Shown here: positions 5,025 through 39,386 of the stretch, piece by piece
Layout of the letters: every line of letters begins with the position of its first letter
How positions within the stretch are numbered: the stretch's first letter is position 1
Origin: Methanofollis ethanolicus
GTDB taxonomy: Archaea; Halobacteriota; Methanomicrobia; Methanomicrobiales; Methanofollaceae
Assembly: GCF_001571385.1 (NCBI RefSeq)
Contig: NZ_BCNW01000001.1
Location: forward strand, 806,001-870,000
Direction: 5' to 3'
Length of the DNA: 64,000 nucleotides
Notes under the pieces: generated by a model
Database searches by the model: none
Told to the model about the DNA's origin: nothing
The model's input: the letters and a program-made list of their open reading frames with translations, nothing else
Position numbers and translations under genes: made by a program

Positions 5025-5867
5025 TCAGGCAGGGGTCTCGTTCATGCCGAGGAAGGTCAGAACCGTCGTGCCGTACTCCTCGGGCGCATAGGACGACCCG
5101 ACATGCGGGATCCCCTTGAACCGCACCAGCCACGACCCCGGGATCTGCCCGGCCATCCGGACGGAGACCGCATCAGGCGTGACCTCGTCGGCGGTCCCGA
5201 CGATGAGCATCACGTCTTTCGTGATCCCGGAGAGGCCGTCGTAGGAACCGTTCCAGGCGAGGTTCGCGCTCGCCTCCTTTTGCAGGCCCAGAGGCTGGGA
5301 GGCGTTCCCGGCGCACGCCACGAGCGTGTCGTATAACTTCTTCGTCTCGTTCAGTCGTGCGCTGTAGGTGGACGAGGAGAGGACGAGTTTTCTGACCGTC
5401 TCCGGGTGGTCGATGACGAGTTGCTGCGAGACCGACGATCCCATCGAGACGCCGTACACGTGCATGCTCTCATAGCCGAGCGCGTCCATCAGTCCGGCCG
5501 CATCGTCGGAGAGTTGCGGGAGCGTGTAGGGGGCGTCGGTGTCGCCGCTGTGCCCCATCGCACGGTGGTCGTAGATGTAGACGTGGTACTGCCCGGCAAG
5601 GATGCCGACAAATGTCTCGTTCCAGTCCTCCATCACCTCGCTGAACCCGGTGATCAGCAGCAGGGGTTCGCCCGCGCCGAACTCCCGGTAGGCCAGACTG
5701 ACGCCGTTCACGTCCGCGTACTGGATGGGGGTGTCGTTGAAGGAGACCGGGAGGGTGGACGGCAAGAGGGTGGCCGTCGGCGTCGCCGATGTTCCGGTGT
5801 CGGCCGTCCCCGTACACCCTGCCGTCAGGAGCAGGCAGAGGCAGATCAGACTACACGATATCCACAT
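5025..5867 (-). CDS. Alpha/beta hydrolase lipoprotein
   Basis: Secreted, lipid-anchored hydrolase. The signal segment MWISCSLICLCLLLTAGC ends in a lipobox (LTAGC), followed by a Ser/Thr/Pro-rich linker. The hydrolase domain shows GAGEPLLLITGF at the oxyanion loop, YDHRAMGHSG, a GVSMGS nucleophile elbow, GTADEVT (Asp region) and a C-terminal PHVGSS His. The ATG at 5867 lacks a spaced ribosome site. GGGAGGAG lies near 5888-5893 and translation from TTG 5894 or a closer non-ATG codon would add Lys-Lys, the normal positive n-region, so the true start may be slightly upstream. A TATA-like ATATATGA lies near 5912-5920. Confidence 0.85.
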   Translation of the reverse strand: MWISCSLICLCLLLTAGCTGTADTGTSATPTATLLPSTLPVSFNDTPIQYADVNGVSLAYREFGAGEPLLLITGFSEVMEDWNETFVGILAGQYHVYIYDHRAMGHSGDTDAPYTLPQLSDDAAGLMDALGYESMHVYGVSMGSSVSQQLVIDHPETVRKLVLSSSTYSARLNETKKLYDTLVACAGNASQPLGLQKEASANLAWNGSYDGLSGITKDVMLIVGTADEVTPDAVSVRMAGQIPGSWLVRFKGIPHVGSSYAPEEYGTTVLTFLGMNETPA

Positions 5868-32139: not shown

Positions 32140-33075
32140 TTACCTCACCGCGAGCATCCTCTCGATCGCCGTCCGCGCCCTGTCGGCGACGTCCGCGGGG
32201 ACGGTCACCCGCGGTTCGAGGGTGACGAGGGAGTCCCTCACCATCGTAAGGTCCGTCTTCTTCATGTTGATGCAGACCGCCCTCCCGGAGAGGGGGTAGA
32301 ACTCCTTGTCCGGGCATTTTTTCTGCATCTGGTGGATGATGCCGACCTCCGTGCCGATGATGAAGGAGCGTGCCGTGCTCGCGCAGGCGTGCCTCACCAT
32401 GCCCGACGTCGACTGAACAGAGTCCGCGAGGTCGATCACCTCGGGCCTGCACTCCGGGTGAACGAGCACCTCGGCCTCCGGGTGGAGGCGGCGGGCGTCC
32501 TGCACGTTCTCGGGGGTGAACCGATCGTGGACATAGCAGAACCCGTCCCAGGGCATCACCTCCTTCGTCGTGAAGCGTGCGACATAGCGGGCGAGGTTCC
32601 GGTCGGGCACGAAGAGGATCCTCTCCGCCTCCAGGGACTCGACAACCGTCACCGCATTCGCCGAGGTGCAGCAGATGTCGCTCTCCGCCTTCACCTCCGC
32701 GGAGGTGTTGACATAACTGACCACCGCGGCGTCCGGGAAGCGTTCCCTCAGCACCCGCACCTCCCCGGCGGTGACCATCGCCGCCATCGGGCAGCAGGCG
32801 TCGCCCGCCGGCAGCACCACCCTCTTCTCCGGCGAGAGGATAGCGGCGGTCTGGGCCATGAAGTCGACGCCGCAGAAGATGATGACCTCCGCGTCGTAGG
32901 CGGTCGCCGCCCTCGCAAGTTCCAGGGAGTCGCCGACGAGGTCCGCGACGTCCTGCACCGCCGGAATCTGGTAGTTGTGCGCGAGGATGACGGCGTCCCT
33001 CTCCTCTTTCAGGCGCAGAATTTCTTCAACGAGTCTCTCCTCCATCGTCTCCCGATCCTCCGGAAGGGCAACCAT
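32140..33075 (-). CDS. nadA: Quinolinate synthase A
   Basis: Fe-S enzyme condensing iminoaspartate and dihydroxyacetone phosphate to quinolinate in NAD synthesis. It has 311 residues, with AVILAHNYQIPAVQDVAD, FCGVDFMAQTAAIL, VSYVNTSAEVKA, HPECRPEVIDLADSVQSTSG and EVGIIHQMQKKCPDKEF, and the three Cys that hold its [4Fe-4S] cluster. The start at 33075 follows a TATA box at 33101-33110 and a 14-bp palindrome. No nadB or nadC is adjacent; control together with Fe-S assembly genes is an inference from the shared palindrome. Confidence 0.95.
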   Translation of the reverse strand: MVALPEDRETMEERLVEEILRLKEERDAVILAHNYQIPAVQDVADLVGDSLELARAATAYDAEVIIFCGVDFMAQTAAILSPEKRVVLPAGDACCPMAAMVTAGEVRVLRERFPDAAVVSYVNTSAEVKAESDICCTSANAVTVVESLEAERILFVPDRNLARYVARFTTKEVMPWDGFCYVHDRFTPENVQDARRLHPEAEVLVHPECRPEVIDLADSVQSTSGMVRHACASTARSFIIGTEVGIIHQMQKKCPDKEFYPLSGRAVCINMKKTDLTMVRDSLVTLEPRVTVPADVADRARTAIERMLAVR

Positions 33076-33100: not shown

Positions 33101-33125
33101 AGTATATAATGTTCACAATTGTGAA
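33101..33125. promoter_or_regulatory. Divergent promoter with palindromic operator
   Basis: AGTATATAAT (33101-33110) can serve as TATA box in both directions, and TTCACAATTGTGAA (33112-33125) is a perfect 14-bp palindrome directly beside it. The site lies between nadA (minus) and the MoaD/ThiS-like gene (plus). The same 14 bases recur ahead of nifS at 34687. A bound protein would overlap the TFB/TATA region for nadA and lie between TATA and start site for the plus-strand gene, which points to repression. Confidence 0.7.
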
Positions 33126-33219
33126 TATGCCGGCGACAGGAGACGGGTATGCCGAGACTATTGTCAGAAAAAGACCGTGCCATGCTGAGAAAATCCACGT
33201 GCGAGGACCGGAGGATATG

Positions 33220-33414
33220 ATGAAAGTCCACCTCTCCCCGGACAGGACCGAGGAGATCGCGGTGACGGCGGCGACCGTCGAGGCCGTCCTCCTCATGCTC
33301 GGCGTCAATCCTGTCGAGGTGATCGTCTCCCGGAACGGCGCCCTCGTACCCGAGGACACCGTGGTCGGCGGCGACGACGAACTCAGGGTGATCAGGTTTG
33401 TCCATGGCGGGTGA
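33220..33414 (+). CDS. MoaD/ThiS/SAMP-like sulfur carrier protein
   Basis: Beta-grasp carrier of 64 residues ending in the diagnostic Gly-Gly (FVHGG), the residue pair that becomes adenylated and thiocarboxylated. The fold markers are an N-terminal strand (KVHLSPDRTEEIAV) and VIVSRNGALVPEDTVVGGDD. ATG 33220 is chosen over 33217 because GGAGG at 33210-33214 is then five bases away. The stop overlaps the thiolase gene, so the carrier probably feeds sulfur to that tRNA enzyme and may also serve MoaE-type chemistry. Confidence 0.85.
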   Translation: MKVHLSPDRTEEIAVTAATVEAVLLMLGVNPVEVIVSRNGALVPEDTVVGGDDELRVIRFVHGG

Positions 33415-34327
33415 GACCGGCCGCTGCTCCTCTCCGGGCTGCACCGAACCCCCTATCATGGTGCTCCGCGGGACCGGGGAGCGCCTCTGCGCCCGCCACT
33501 TCACCGCCTCGGTCGAGGGCCGGGTGCGGCAGACCGTCGAAGAGCGGAAGATGGTGCAGGACGGCGACGTCGTCGTCGTCGGCCTCTCCGGCGGCAAAGA
33601 CAGCACCGTCCTCCTCCACATCCTCAGCCGTATCCTCCGCGACCGACCCGTCAGGGTCGTCGCCGTCACCGTGGACGAGGGGATCGCGGGCTACCGGGAG
33701 GAGACGGTTCAGACAGCCCGCGCCATCACCGCCGCCTGCGGCGTCGAGCACGTCATCGTCTCCTTCGAGGACTATTGCGGCAGCACCCTGGACGAACTCG
33801 TGCGCGAACGCCCCGAGCACCCCTGCACCATCTGCGGCGTGCTGCGGCGGCGCCTCCTCCAGAATGCGGCCCGCGACCTCGGGGCGACGCGCCTTGCGAC
33901 AGGCCACTGTCTCGACGACGAGGTGCAGTCGGCCCTGATGAACATCCTGAACGGCGACGTCAGGCGGATCGTGCGGACCGGCGTCCCCGACGCGGGCGCG
34001 TTCGTCCCGCGGGTCAAACCCCTCCGGGACATCCCGGAAAAAGAAGTGACATTGTACGGGATCGTGCAGGGGATCTACACACCCCTTCCCGAGTGCCCGT
34101 ACGCCGGGGAGGCCCTGCGGTCAGACGTGCGCCACCTCCTCTCCACCCTCGAATACCGCCACCCCGGCACGATGGAGAGGACGATGGCGGGATACGACCG
34201 CCTGCGGGAGAGGGTCGGCGGGTGCGTGGAGGGAGGTGAGGTATCGTACTGCCCCGAGTGCGGCGAACCGAGCACCGGCGGCCTCTGCCGCGCCTGCGAA
34301 CTCCTGGGGTCACTCGCGGACCGATGA
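33404..34327 (+). CDS. Ncs6/TtuA-family tRNA 2-thiolation protein
   Basis: PP-loop ATPase of 307 residues of the TIGR00269 type. It has an N-terminal zinc finger (CSSPGC, then LCARH), the PP-loop GLSGGKDSTVLLHIL, the central Cys region HPCTICGVLRRRLLQ, GHCLDDEVQ, and a C-terminal zinc ribbon (CPECGEPSTGGLCRACELL). It activates tRNA for thiolation, probably of U34 or U54, using sulfur from the MoaD/ThiS-like carrier encoded just upstream. Its end overlaps the convergent regulator gene by 18 bases. Confidence 0.88.
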   Translation: MAGETGRCSSPGCTEPPIMVLRGTGERLCARHFTASVEGRVRQTVEERKMVQDGDVVVVGLSGGKDSTVLLHILSRILRDRPVRVVAVTVDEGIAGYREETVQTARAITAACGVEHVIVSFEDYCGSTLDELVRERPEHPCTICGVLRRRLLQNAARDLGATRLATGHCLDDEVQSALMNILNGDVRRIVRTGVPDAGAFVPRVKPLRDIPEKEVTLYGIVQGIYTPLPECPYAGEALRSDVRHLLSTLEYRHPGTMERTMAGYDRLRERVGGCVEGGEVSYCPECGEPSTGGLCRACELLGSLADR

Positions 34328-34639
34328 CCCGTCCATCCCGCACTGGCTGTCCCCTTCGCGCAGTTGCATGCAGATGCCGCAGATCCGTTTCCCCAGGTCC
34401 TCGACCTTTCCGTCCTTCAGGTCGACGGCGAGGGACCGGACCGACTCCTTCACCTCGTCCTCGAAGACGATCCGGTAGCCACGCTTTCCGGAGAGGTACT
34501 GCGAGACCGCGGACGGCGCCATGTCGAGGAGGCGGGCGGCCTCGAGTTGCGAGACGCCGGCCGCGATCAACTCCCCGGCAATCGCCGCCCGTATCGCCGG
34601 CAGCACGTCCCAAACGATTAACTGGCACGGTACTTTCAT
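34310..34639 (-). CDS. HTH regulator with C-terminal Cys cluster, candidate Fe-S sensor
   Basis: Protein of 109 residues. Residues about 28-55 form an XRE-type helix-turn-helix ([20 protein letters not shown]). The C terminus carries [15 protein letters not shown], a C-x2-C-x9-C arrangement, with another Cys at position 5, suited to bind an Fe-S cluster or metal. It is divergent from nifS, and the palindrome at 34687-34700 lies between them. The small HTH-plus-Cys layout resembles COG2522-type archaeal regulators. That it senses Fe-S status is an inference from context. Confidence 0.75.
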
Positions 34640-34686
34640 ACTATCACAACGTATATACGCAGGAAGAGAGCACCTATCGTGCGTAC

Positions 34687-34700
34687 TTCACAATTGTGAA
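34687..34700. promoter_or_regulatory. Palindromic operator ahead of nifS-nifU
   Basis: TTCACAATTGTGAA, identical to the site at 33112. A TATATA at 34652-34657 predicts plus-strand transcription starting near 34680, so the palindrome would sit just downstream of the start site, a repressor position. The HTH regulator gene begins 48 bases away on the other strand, which suits autoregulation. Confidence 0.7.
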
Positions 34701-34775
34701 TTGGCGCCCTGCACGAAAATACTTTGCCATCCTCCTTCCCGGATGACGCCGCAGCAGGGCCAGGGGTCAATTGAT

Positions 34776-35954
34776 ATGAAGAAACTGGTGTACATGGACC
34801 ACGCGGCGACCACGCCCGTGAAACCCGACGTCCTTGAGGCGATGCTCCCGTACTTCTCCGAAAAGTTCGGCAACCCCTCCTCGATCTACGCGCTCGCCCA
34901 CGACTCGAAGGAGGCGGTGGAGCATGCACGAGCACAGGTTGCGGCGGCGATCGGCGCATCTCCCGACGAGATCTTCTTCACCGCCGGGGGATCGGAGTCC
35001 GACAACTGGGCGATCAAGGGGACCGCCTTTGCGAACCGGAAGAAGGGCGACCACATCATCACCACGGCGATCGAGCACCACGCCGTCCTCCACACCTGCG
35101 AGTACCTCGAAAAGCAGGGCTTCACCGTCACCTACCTCCCGGTGGACAACTACGGCATGGTCGACCCTGCGGACGTCGAAGCGGCGATCACCGACAGGAC
35201 CATCCTCGTCACGGTGATGGCCGCGAACAACGAGATCGGCACCGTCCAGCCGATCCGGGAGATCGGCAGGATCGCCCGCGCCCACGGCGTCCTCTTCCAC
35301 ACCGACGCCGTGCAGGCGGTCGGCGCCGTCCCGATCGACGTGAAGGCCGACACTATCGACATGCTCTCCCTCTCCGGCCACAAGTTCTACGGCCCGAAGG
35401 GGATCGGCGCCCTGTACGTCAGGAAGGGCACGCGGCTCGACAGCCTCGTCCACGGCGGCGGGCAGGAACGCCGGCGGCGTGCCGGGACCGAGAACCTCCC
35501 CGGCATCGTCGGCCTGGGGAAGGCGATCGAGATGGCGACCGCGGACATTCCGGGCCACACCGCATATATCGCGGCGATGCGGGACAGACTCCTCAAGGGC
35601 ATCCTGGCCGCCATCCCGGACACCATCCTGAACGGCCACCCGACGATGCGCCTCCCGAACAACCTCAATGTCAGTTTCCGCTACATCGAGGGCGAGTCCG
35701 TCCTCCTCATGCTCGACGCCCACGGCATCTGCGCATCGACAGGGAGCGCGTGCAGTTCGGCGTCCCTCGAACCCTCGCACGTCCTCCTTGCGATCGGTCT
35801 CCCGCACGAGACGGCTCACGGGTCGCTCCGCCTCACCCTGGGCGACCTGACCACCGACGAGGACGTCGACCATGTCCTGGAGGTGCTCCCGACGATCGTC
35901 GAGAGACTGCGGAGCATGTCGCCCCTGTATGCGGTGCGGAACGGAGGTATATGA
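34776..35954 (+). CDS. nifS: Cysteine desulfurase NifS/IscS
   Basis: PLP enzyme of 392 residues that extracts sulfur from cysteine for Fe-S cluster building. It starts [28 protein letters not shown], the PLP Lys in [12 protein letters not shown] and the persulfide Cys in [18 protein letters not shown] are all present, with the long group I loop. ATG 34776 is preferred; ATG 34743 would add 11 poorly conserved residues. The stop overlaps nifU. Confidence 0.95.
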
Positions 35955-36382
35955 TGTACAACGAGACAGTGATGGACCATTTCATGAACCCGAGGAACGT
36001 TGGCGAGATGAAAGACCCCGACGGCGTCGGCGAGGTCGGCAACCCGACCTGCGGCGACATCATGAAGATCTTCCTGCGTATCCGGGACGACCGCATCGAG
36101 GACGTGACGTTCATGACCTTCGGCTGCGGCGCCGCGATCGCCTCGTCGAGCATGGCGACCGAACTGATCAAAGGAAAGACCCTGGACGAGGCGTGGGAGA
36201 TCACGAACAAAGCGGTGGCTGCGGCCCTGGAGGGCCTCCCGCCGCAGAAACTCCACTGCTCCGTCCTCGCCGAGGAGGGCATCCACGCGGCGATCAACGA
36301 CTACCGGAGGAAACATGGCCTCGAACCCCGCCCCGAGACCGGTCACGCCGCCCACGAGGAGGCCGGCGGCGATGCTGAGTGA
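35954..36382 (+). CDS. nifU: Fe-S cluster scaffold NifU/IscU
   Basis: Scaffold of 142 residues on which [2Fe-2S] and [4Fe-4S] clusters are assembled with sulfur from NifS. It begins [19 protein letters not shown]. The three ligand Cys are visible in GNPTCGD, FGCGAA and LHCSVLAEEG, with the Asp next to the first. The C-terminal 25 residues are polar and poorly conserved. GGAGG at 35943-35947 gives good spacing to ATG 35954. It overlaps both nifS and the MoeB-like gene. Confidence 0.94.
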   Translation: MYNETVMDHFMNPRNVGEMKDPDGVGEVGNPTCGDIMKIFLRIRDDRIEDVTFMTFGCGAAIASSSMATELIKGKTLDEAWEITNKAVAAALEGLPPQKLHCSVLAEEGIHAAINDYRRKHGLEPRPETGHAAHEEAGGDAE

Positions 36383-37115
36383 GCACGAACGCGAACGCTA
36401 CCGTCGGCAGACGATGCTCTTCGGCGAGGAAGGGCAGGAGAAACTCAAAAGAGCGACGGTCTTCGTCGCGGGTGCGGGCGGCCTCGGGTGTCCGGTCGCC
36501 CTGTACCTCGCCGCCGCGGGCATCGGGCATATCAGGATCGCCGACTGCGACACCGTGGAGACGACCAACCTGAACAGGCAGGTCCTCCACTGGGACAGAG
36601 ATGTCGGGCGGGCGAAGGTCGCCTCGGCCGGGGAGAAACTCGCGGCCGTCAACCCGGAGATCGAGGTGGAGACGGCGCGGGTCGTCATCGACGCCTCCAA
36701 CGTCGCCGACCTCGCCGGCGACGCCGACGTGATCGTGGACGCGATGGACAACTTCGAGACCCGCTACCTCCTCAACGAGGTCGCCCTGGCGAGGGGCATC
36801 CCCCTTGTCCACGGTGCGATCTCCGGGTTTTTCGGGCAGGCGACGACGATCATCCCGGAACAGACCCCGTGCCTCCGCTGCATCTTCCCGACGGCGCCGC
36901 CGAAGGAGACCTTCCCGGTGGTCGGCACGACTGCCGGCGTGATCGGGCTCGTGGAGGCGAACGAGGTGATAAAATACCTGACAGGTGCCGGCGACCTCCT
37001 TGCCGGCCGTCTCCTCCTCTGGGACGGGACGAACTCCACGATGGAGACGATCGCCATGGAAAGACAGCCGAAGTGCCCGGCCTGCGGCCACCTGCACGAG
37101 AAGGTGTGTCCATGA
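36372..37115 (+). CDS. MoeB/ThiF/HesA-type adenylyltransferase (E1-like)
   Basis: ATP-dependent activator of MoaD/ThiS-type carriers, 247 residues. The nucleotide site GAGGLGCPVALYLAAAGIG, the TNLNRQVLHW loop, DAMDNFETRYLLN and zinc pairs CLRC and CPAC are clear. The position where bacterial MoeB or ThiF often has a conserved Cys reads GTTAGVIG, so a covalent thioester is unlikely. It probably adenylates the carrier encoded at 33220. It overlaps nifU by 11 bases and moaE by four. Confidence 0.92.
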   Translation: MLSEHERERYRRQTMLFGEEGQEKLKRATVFVAGAGGLGCPVALYLAAAGIGHIRIADCDTVETTNLNRQVLHWDRDVGRAKVASAGEKLAAVNPEIEVETARVVIDASNVADLAGDADVIVDAMDNFETRYLLNEVALARGIPLVHGAISGFFGQATTIIPEQTPCLRCIFPTAPPKETFPVVGTTAGVIGLVEANEVIKYLTGAGDLLAGRLLLWDGTNSTMETIAMERQPKCPACGHLHEKVCP

Positions 37116-37516
37116 TAGACCTGACGCGTGACGATTTCGACGTGAACGAGATGATCGCACGGGCGAGAAAACCGTCGATGGGTGCGCTGGTCACCTTCCT
37201 CGGCGTGGTGCGGGACGACGACATCGAGGGCATGGAACTGGAGGCCTACGAGGAGGTCGCCCGCGCCGAACTCGGGGCGATCCGGGACGAGGCCTTTGCG
37301 ACGTTCCCCATAGAATCGGTGGACATCATCCACCGCACCGGCCGACTGAAGGTCGGGGAGAACATCCTCCTGATCATCGTCGGCGCCGGCCACAGGCACG
37401 AGGCGTTCGCCGCCTGCGAGTACGTCATCGACCGGATCAAGGAGAGCGTCCCCATCTGGAAGAAGGAGACGGTGAAGGGCGGGGACACCCGCTGGGTCCC
37501 CGGCCACCAGGGGTGA
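37112..37516 (+). CDS. moaE: Molybdopterin synthase catalytic subunit MoaE
   Basis: Large subunit of molybdopterin synthase, 134 residues. With a thiocarboxylated MoaD it inserts the dithiolene sulfurs into precursor Z, here for the tungsto- or molybdopterin of methanogenic enzymes. GALVTFLGVVRDDDIEGMEL, GAGHRHEAFAACEYVIDRIK and the catalytic VPIWKKETV are intact. It starts inside the MoeB-like stop (ATGA). Its likely MoaD partner is the small carrier at 33220. Confidence 0.95.
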   Translation: MIDLTRDDFDVNEMIARARKPSMGALVTFLGVVRDDDIEGMELEAYEEVARAELGAIRDEAFATFPIESVDIIHRTGRLKVGENILLIIVGAGHRHEAFAACEYVIDRIKESVPIWKKETVKGGDTRWVPGHQG

Positions 37517-38209: not shown

Positions 38210-38407
38210 TCAGAGAGAGTGCTCGTAGATCCGGTTCTTCTCCGGGTCGATGGCAGAGTCCCCCGGACGGTCGAGGAGGTCGAGGGCGTTGATCTCCATG
38301 GCGGTCACCTCCTCGACGGTGTAGCACCGCCGTCTCAGTTCTCCTTCTTTCCTGTACCTCACCTCGGTCCTGTCGTGGTGTTTCTCGGCGGCGACGGTCC
38401 GGTGCAT
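38210..38407 (-). CDS. Small hypothetical protein
   Basis: A 65-residue charged protein (MHRTVAAEKHHDRTEVRYRK at the start, AIDPEKNRIYEHSL at the end). An AAAAAATATAGT box at 38421-38432 on the minus strand predicts transcription starting almost at the ATG, so the gene looks leaderless. I do not recognise the family. It diverges from the sulfite-reductase-like gene, and the regular codon use supports it being real. Confidence 0.55.
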   Translation of the reverse strand: MHRTVAAEKHHDRTEVRYRKEGELRRRCYTVEEVTAMEINALDLLDRPGDSAIDPEKNRIYEHSL

Positions 38408-38480
38408 GCCCGGGTCCGGGACTATATTTTTTGCGGGCAGGATTGATGCCCTTCCGGCCCCATACCCTTTTGGATCACTG

Positions 38481-39386
38481 ATGACCGGCACGACGAAAAG
38501 AACGGGGGGCGGCGTCCTGCCGCAGAAGGAGAAGGGTTTTGTCTCGATACGGGTGCGGGCGCCGGCAGGCGTCCTGACGGCTGAGCAGATGGAGGCGGTC
38601 GCCGCGGTCTCCCGGCGGTTCGGGCGGGGCGATGTCACCCTGACCCTCAGGCTCAATGCCGAGGTCCCCTGGGTCAGGCGCGAGGACGTCCCCGCCGCCG
38701 TCGAGGCCCTCGAACACGCCGGTCTTGCCGTCGGGAGCACGGGCGCAACCGTCAGGTCGGTCGTCGCCTGCAAGGGGACGTTCTGCCGCCACGGCATCGT
38801 CGATACCCAGGCCCTCGCCCGCGCGATCGAGGCCTGCGAGGGCGGCCGCGCCCTCCCGAGAAAACTGAAGGTTGCGATCGCGGGCTGCCCGAACAACTGC
38901 GCGAGGGTCCAGTTCAACGATATCGGGTTGATGGGCGAGGCGTACCCCGCCTTCGACGCCGCGGCCTGCTCCCTCTGCGGCGCCTGCGCCCGCGTCTGCC
39001 GGGAGGGCGGGGTCGCCGTCGTCGATGAGAAGGTCCGTTTTTCGGCCGACGCCTGCATCGGGTGCGGCGACTGCATCGCCGTCTGCCCGGCAGGTGCGGT
39101 GACGGCGGAGACAGAGGGAGTCGTCGTCTATCTCGGCGGCATGGCGGGCCGCCACGTCAGGACAGGCGTCCGCGCCGCCGGTCCCCTCGCGCCCGGCGAC
39201 CTGCCGGCCTTCGTCCACAGGACCATCGACTACTTTGCCTGCCACGCAGAAAAGGGGGAAAGGTTCGGAGAGATGATGGACAGGACCGGGGAGGAAGAGG
39301 TGCTATCAGCCCTCACTCGTCCCGTTCCCGGTAGATCCTCCGGAGAGCACGGGCAATCTCGCTCTCCGGATGCGTCTCGGCAATGA
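38481..39386 (+). CDS. Small dissimilatory-type sulfite reductase-like protein
   Basis: A 301-residue siroheme/Fe-S oxidoreductase-like protein. A half-domain of the nitrite/sulfite reductase fold (VTLTLRLNAEVPWVRREDVP) is followed by siroheme-cluster ligands CKGTFC and GCPNNC, then a two-cluster ferredoxin (CSLCGACARVC and CIGCGDCIAVCP). The first pair is C-x4-C, one residue shorter than the usual C-x5-C. Methanogens carry several such Dsr-like proteins of uncertain role. The start is ATG 38481. Its 3' end overlaps the convergent antitoxin-like gene by 74 bases. Confidence 0.85.
   Translation: MTGTTKRTGGGVLPQKEKGFVSIRVRAPAGVLTAEQMEAVAAVSRRFGRGDVTLTLRLNAEVPWVRREDVPAAVEALEHAGLAVGSTGATVRSVVACKGTFCRHGIVDTQALARAIEACEGGRALPRKLKVAIAGCPNNCARVQFNDIGLMGEAYPAFDAAACSLCGACARVCREGGVAVVDEKVRFSADACIGCGDCIAVCPAGAVTAETEGVVVYLGGMAGRHVRTGVRAAGPLAPGDLPAFVHRTIDYFACHAEKGERFGEMMDRTGEEEVLSALTRPVPGRSSGEHGQSRSPDASRQ

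Follow-up and report, generated by a model that had tools for sequence, protein, structure and literature searches.

In the window (the whole 64-kb stretch of DNA analysed) the palindrome TTCACAATTGTGAA occurs exactly twice, at 33112-33125 between nadA on the reverse strand and a forward-strand MoaD-like/NcsA-like unit (operator 1), and at 34687-34700 between a reverse-strand gene for a helix-turn-helix (HTH) protein and forward-strand nifS (operator 2), both copies and their gene context agreeing with what a sequence-only reading of this DNA had claimed. Profile searches identified nadA (32140-33075), coding for the 4Fe-4S enzyme quinolinate synthase, as the predicted target of operator 1, which is adjoined by a TATA-like box, AGTATATAAT, at 33101-33110; the nadA genes of Methanolobus and Methanoculleus relatives have an operator upstream as well. 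On the other side of operator 1 lies a 23-codon ORF, MPRLLSEKDRAMLRKSTCEDRRI (33149-33220, forward strand), which, judged by its likeness to a gene of 115-118 aa in relatives, seems to be a truncated remnant of the beginning of that gene; in Methanoculleus and other relatives it is transcribed divergently from nadA (comparison genes L172:7969-8313 and L176:11692-12045). The stop of the ORF adjoins the start of the gene for a 64-aa SAMP2/ThiS/MoaD-like sulfur carrier (33220-33414, forward strand; SAMP2, 4e-9; ThiS, 7e-7), followed by the gene for an NcsA/TtuA-like PP-loop enzyme of tRNA thiolation (33404-34327, forward strand), which scores 255 bits with NcsA, below the equivalog cut-off, and 95 bits with TIGR00269, above the cut-off. 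The HTH gene (34310-34639, reverse strand) codes for a 109-aa XRE/Cro-like protein with four conserved cysteines, and operator 2 ends 47 bp before its start codon. Beyond operator 2, its predicted target nifS/iscS (cysteine desulfurase; 34776-35954; TIGR03402, 625 bits) opens a tightly packed forward-strand run with the scaffold gene nifU/iscU (35954-36382; TIGR03419, 218 bits), a ThiF/MoeB-type E1 enzyme gene overlapping the preceding one (36372-37115; ThiF, 1e-74) and, as the last member, moaE (37112-37516; MoaE, 1e-35). Downstream of moaE, 38406-39386 codes for a sulfite/nitrite-reductase-like protein with ferredoxin domains.

The window held no further match to TTCACAATTGTGAA at up to two mismatches, and its shuffles gave a mean of 0.02 matches. 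A search of the whole 2.71-Mb genome found three exact copies and none with one mismatch, with no exact copy of the reversed control motif. At the window GC of 62.6% the palindrome would arise by chance with a probability of 5e-10 at any position and 0.0014 times in a genome, so the earlier figure of one in 270 million was conservative. Allowing two mismatches added seven matches against four for the reversed control, and these are mostly noise, the exception being TTAACAATTGTTAA ahead of the gene for a paralogue of the HTH protein. The third exact copy lies between fdhD and a gene for an 886-aa fusion of a PAPS-reductase domain with a class-V aminotransferase (cysteine-desulfurase-like) domain (L179:4220-6877). 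FdhD is a sulfurtransferase fed by IscS, and thus each of the three exact sites lies at genes of sulfur transfer or Fe-S.

The HTH protein scores 22.0 bits with Pfam HTH_3 (E = 1.7e-4), just short of the cut-off of 23, in a match confined to the HTH core; no Rrf2 family appeared among the Pfam matches at E <= 0.01, and no NCBIfam model was hit. Its relatives, paralogues included, are present in 135 of 150 genomes of the order, and relatives were found in 190 of 247 genomes sampled across the phylum. The 80 named loci compared come from Methanofollis, Methanoculleus, Methanoregula, Methanocalculus, Methanospirillum, Methanolobus, Methanomethylovorans, Methanohalophilus and Methanococcoides. C5, C87, C90 and C100 are conserved, and an N-terminal Cys, a CxxC and another Cys 8-17 residues further on are found in all 80; the C-x2-C-x9-C tail noticed before is thus real (C87-x2-C90-x9-C100), and the equally conserved C5 had been overlooked. 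The AlphaFold model is confident for the helical core, with pLDDT < 50 at both Cys-bearing ends, so that a meeting of the cysteines cannot be demonstrated in it. No PDB relative was found by sequence, and a fold search gave a weak likeness to HigA antitoxins, none at E <= 0.001. At L126:5016 onward no stop separates the HTH frame from that of a LarE-like sulfur transferase, as a result either of a fusion or of a missing stop. Methanosarcina mazei MM2441, a candidate for a relative with a published description, was set aside, as the terms searched in its paper gave no support.

The operator recurs at the gene of the regulator itself. Each of the first 30 orthologues compared is preceded by the palindrome or a near match to it, in most cases at 45-48 bp from the start codon. 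In 59 of the 80 named loci its distance to the downstream HTH start is 36-56 bp; Methanofollis, Methanoculleus, Methanoregula, Methanolobus and Methanohalophilus are among the genera, from two orders, that carry it there. Variants include TTAACAATTGTTAA in Methanoculleus, mostly TTCACAATTGTGAG in Methanolobus, TTCACAATAGTGAA-like sites in Methanohalophilus and Methanococcoides, TTCACAATCGTGAA at locus L021 (= L081), and 13-bp forms with one central base fewer in Methanocorpusculum-like genomes and two others, and neighbouring sites are often spaced 27-28 bp apart. In the 80-locus scan no clear operator was seen at the orthologues of Methanomethylovorans, some Methanospirillum and a few Methanoregulaceae. 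The TTAACAATTGTTAA form also occurs in 11 copies in one genome (G001), where the copies examined are mostly within repeated transposase-like ORFs (L198-L203), and this could be read as a sign of a repeat or mobile sequence devoid of regulatory meaning; however, elsewhere there are few sites per genome, at a fixed distance from the HTH gene, and the same gene families flank them across different genera, so that we give this explanation almost no credence. The copies in the transposase-like ORFs are a harmless source of false operator matches.

The placement of these sites bears on how the protein could act. At operator 2 the TATA-like box of the HTH gene, AAAGTATTTT (34716-34725, reverse strand), lies about 20 bp ahead of the operator, and therefore the start site is expected inside it. 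Likewise, the 59 aligned HTH promoters have an AT-rich block 15-25 bp before the operator, which again places the expected start within the operator. An operator over the predicted TATA/start region would be the geometry of a repressor, and this agrees with the part of the sequence-only reading that had the HTH protein repressing both promoters, a role that the promoter layout suggests. Some operators lie upstream of a likely TATA box, as on the nadA side of operator 1, which would suit an activator, but activation appears unlikely given that the operator covers the expected start at HTH promoters and that paired operators span TATA box and start at many promoters of SepCysS and tRNA-Cys genes.

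Several comparisons point to the HTH protein as the factor that recognises the operator. In 1.26 Mb of sequence around HTH genes we counted 85 exact sites and 60 with one mismatch, whereas the reversed control gave 0 and 2. Among 150 genomes of the order, 34 have both the exact palindrome and the orthologue, 2 only the palindrome, 36 only the orthologue and 78 neither, so that the palindrome tracks the orthologue (Fisher p = 6e-12, a value that ignores shared ancestry), and several of the exceptions are explained by variant operators. Five genomes of the genus Methanofollis listed without the orthologue (G003, G009, G027, G033 and G062) also have no TTCACAATTGTGAA; in two draft genomes (G045 and G120) operators were found but no orthologue was detected. 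Furthermore, residue 41 of the HTH protein, at the start of the recognition helix, covaries with base 3 of the operator: Ala41 goes with C in TTCAC half-sites (55 C/C and 7 mixed A/C) and Thr41 with A in TTAAC half-sites (A/A, in 6 Methanoculleus orthologues), a pairing that recurs in Methanofollis paralogues and in distant lineages. The paralogue is 46% identical over 94 residues (HTH_3, 21.0 bits), and TTAACAATTGTTAA lies about 33 bp upstream of its gene in every genus member examined, in the genome of the window at G000:C1:1177121-1177134 and 1177168 (L170:5122 and 5154-5543). The existence of this paralogue with a near-identical operator, and the many operator-bearing genes that lie elsewhere than the HTH gene, would allow another transcription factor to bind the palindrome, the HTH gene being merely one more target. 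We consider this very unlikely, because the operator is near-constant at the HTH gene in two orders, because palindrome and orthologue co-occur, and because the pairing of residue 41 with base 3 holds in separate lineages. The same evidence strongly supports the earlier proposal of a shared operator recognised by the adjacent HTH protein, and we infer with confidence, from sequence comparison, that the protein would bind the operator directly.

In the 80 loci, 138 of 145 sites (at most one mismatch) fall within 400 bp upstream of a listed gene, a figure that is descriptive and no independent test, since the gene list was partly drawn from the same sites. Gene calls in relatives are ORF-based, with profile searches on representatives, which identified as predicted targets NifS, NadA, ThiF/MoeB, SepCysS (a 454-aa form), CysK, MetX, MetY, Thi4, PdxS, ThiN, a radical-SAM protein and DUF1890. 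The 454-aa target had been taken as a possible PAPS reductase, which NCBIfam ruled out in identifying it as SepCysS. Two other genes, a B12-binding gene opposite nadA in Methanolobus and an F420-ligase-like gene at locus L111, are probable bystanders of divergent promoters. Two conditions that the sequence-only reading named as refuting do not hold: the palindrome is uncommon among unrelated promoters, and an operator precedes 31 of the 39 nifS genes in HTH loci. Larger clusters place operator-bearing units beside genes for a SufS-type desulfurase, FdhD, LarE, ThiI, CysE, MoaE and a NifHDK-like operon. NifHDK-like operons in sulfur clusters were seen in Methanoculleus-like and other Methanomicrobiales genomes (L177:10510-14322, L171 and L174).

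Genes for cysteine and homocysteine synthesis are among the targets in relatives (CysK, in part with CysE, MetY-MetX, SepCysS and HcyBio), the last in a distant lineage (L252) where TTAACAATTGTTAA stands ahead of the HcyBio homocysteine-synthesis gene; no such genes were found at the three exact sites of the genome of the window. Three genomes that are probably Methanosarcina (G244, G262 and G274) have operators before nifS/iscS-iscU-nadA and metY-metX, and G244 and G262 also before cysK-cysE. In Methanosarcina acetivorans the iscSU2 cluster is grouped with methionine and NAD biosynthesis genes, its loss lowers persulfide only when cysteine is the sulfur source, and it traffics sulfur from cysteine, not sulfide (PMC7585200). 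The matching arrangement carries operators in loci L240-L242.

Scanning the genome and its relatives for the palindrome thus recovered Fe-S and sulfur genes as had been foreseen, but not a theme confined to Fe-S, and the earlier label of an Fe-S-responsive regulon is too narrow for relatives in which the targets concern sulfur assimilation and transfer. As a common theme, the predicted targets acquire and incorporate sulfur, with Fe-S assembly as one part of this; NadA, PdxS and FdhD lie outside sulfur assimilation proper. Sensing of Fe-S clusters in the manner of IscR, in which the holo-protein would repress and cluster loss under iron or sulfur shortage would derepress, is a tentative possibility. 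It would suit the four conserved cysteines and the presence of NifS, NifU and NadA among the most constant targets, and a cluster would report sulfide and iron jointly. However, most other targets incorporate sulfur and not iron, no suf or iron-uptake (feo) gene is present at the three exact sites of this genome, the predicted structure gives no sign of the cysteines converging, and zinc or thiol/persulfide chemistry fits the residues equally well. Fe-S sensing is also one possible chemistry within the sulfur-status model set out below, and the confidence in one overlaps with that in the other.

The operator was also associated with tRNA-Cys genes. Within 45 bp upstream it was found (at most two mismatches) at 54 of 71 tRNA-Cys genes vs none of 27 other tRNA genes, counted over the fetched loci, some of which overlap, most often at a distance of 6-12 bp. 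Operator-linked tRNA-Cys genes occur in genomes G022, G123, G025, G064 and G002, often ahead of the genes for SepCysS, MetY-MetX, CysK or Thi4, and further examples are found at L063:19206-19277, L172, L174, L176, L182, L240-L242 and others. Three of these genomes (G022, G002 and G064) have an additional tRNA-Cys gene without an operator, which we take as the housekeeping gene. Three Methanosarcina-like tRNA-Cys copies have the anticodon loop CTGCAAC (A37), most others having CTGCAGA (G37). In these archaea SepCysS makes cysteine on tRNA-Cys. We lean, by a little, towards the view that many Methanomicrobiales and Methanosarcinales possess a single sulfur-sensing repressor for both protein genes and dedicated extra tRNA-Cys genes, with the housekeeping copy exempt. 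This part does not apply to the organism of the window, because its single tRNA-Cys has no operator and it has only the shorter SepCysS. If true, control of tRNA supply would belong to the biosynthesis of an amino acid, since cysteine is made on this tRNA, and it would be unusual for a transcription factor to act on particular tRNA genes in so direct a way.

All these data make it likely that the 109-aa HTH protein is an autorepressing sulfur-status regulator of sulfur genes acting via TTMACAATTGTKAA. Comparison across genomes shows the operator, how it is linked to the HTH gene, and the predicted target families, and we infer with moderate confidence that the protein represses and that sulfur is the signal. 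A dimer would bind TTMACAATTGTKAA on core promoters, including its own, and with sufficient sulfur would repress the genes by which sulfur is acquired, transferred and incorporated. Under a shortage of sulfide or cysteine the protein would lose its signal state, probably through C5, C87, C90 and C100, and the sulfur genes would be derepressed; a particular chemistry of these cysteines, be it an Fe-S cluster, zinc or thiols, can be suggested only weakly. In the organism of the window the regulon would be small, comprising nadA, the sulfur-carrier/tRNA-thiolation pair, the HTH gene, nifS-nifU-thiF-moaE and the fdhD/PAPS-reductase-desulfurase fusion pair, and relatives would add cysteine and homocysteine synthesis, SepCysS and extra tRNA-Cys genes.

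In the open-access literature we found no published description of this regulator or regulon and no expression data for these genes. A methanogen proteomics paper discusses a DtxR-type iron regulator and leaves the co-regulation of sulfur pathways as a question (PMC8516115). Our analysis offers a specific candidate protein, operator and target list, the uncharacterised HTH protein being a strong candidate for a sulfur master regulator of methane-producing archaea. If true, Fe-S assembly, cysteine and methionine synthesis and tRNA-Cys supply would be under one switch, and the predicted regulon is present in genomes that are probably of Methanosarcina, where gene deletion is routine.

Among known systems, the bacterial IscR (Rrf2 family) resembles the HTH protein in its conserved cysteines and in the autoregulation and control of a cysteine desulfurase/scaffold operon predicted for the latter, whereas the HTH protein is XRE-like and not Rrf2, has a 14-bp operator and would reach to sulfur amino acid, tRNA-Cys and thiamine genes. 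Bacterial sulfur regulators of the CymR/CysB/MetJ type switch CysK, CysE, MetX/MetY and related genes together, a similar target logic carried out by unrelated proteins, with SepCysS and tRNA-Cys added here. SurR of Thermococcales is likewise an archaeal regulator with a CxxC motif and responds to sulfur, as our candidate would, but it controls sulfur respiration and hydrogenases and differs in operator and organisms. The NifD-like protein of the larger clusters is closest to methylthio-alkane reductase (PDB 9FMG and 9D9U), with MarHDK (PDB 9FMG; PMC12552129) as its closest solved relative, although the protein found here is archaeal and lies in clusters rich in the HTH operator. Lastly, clade VII SepCysS genes have been reported often near tRNA-Cys and a few sulfur genes by Mukai et al. 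2017 (PMC5424206), the available excerpts of which report no shared operator or regulator for these neighbourhoods, whereas here the same type of unit carries the HTH operator beside the tRNA.
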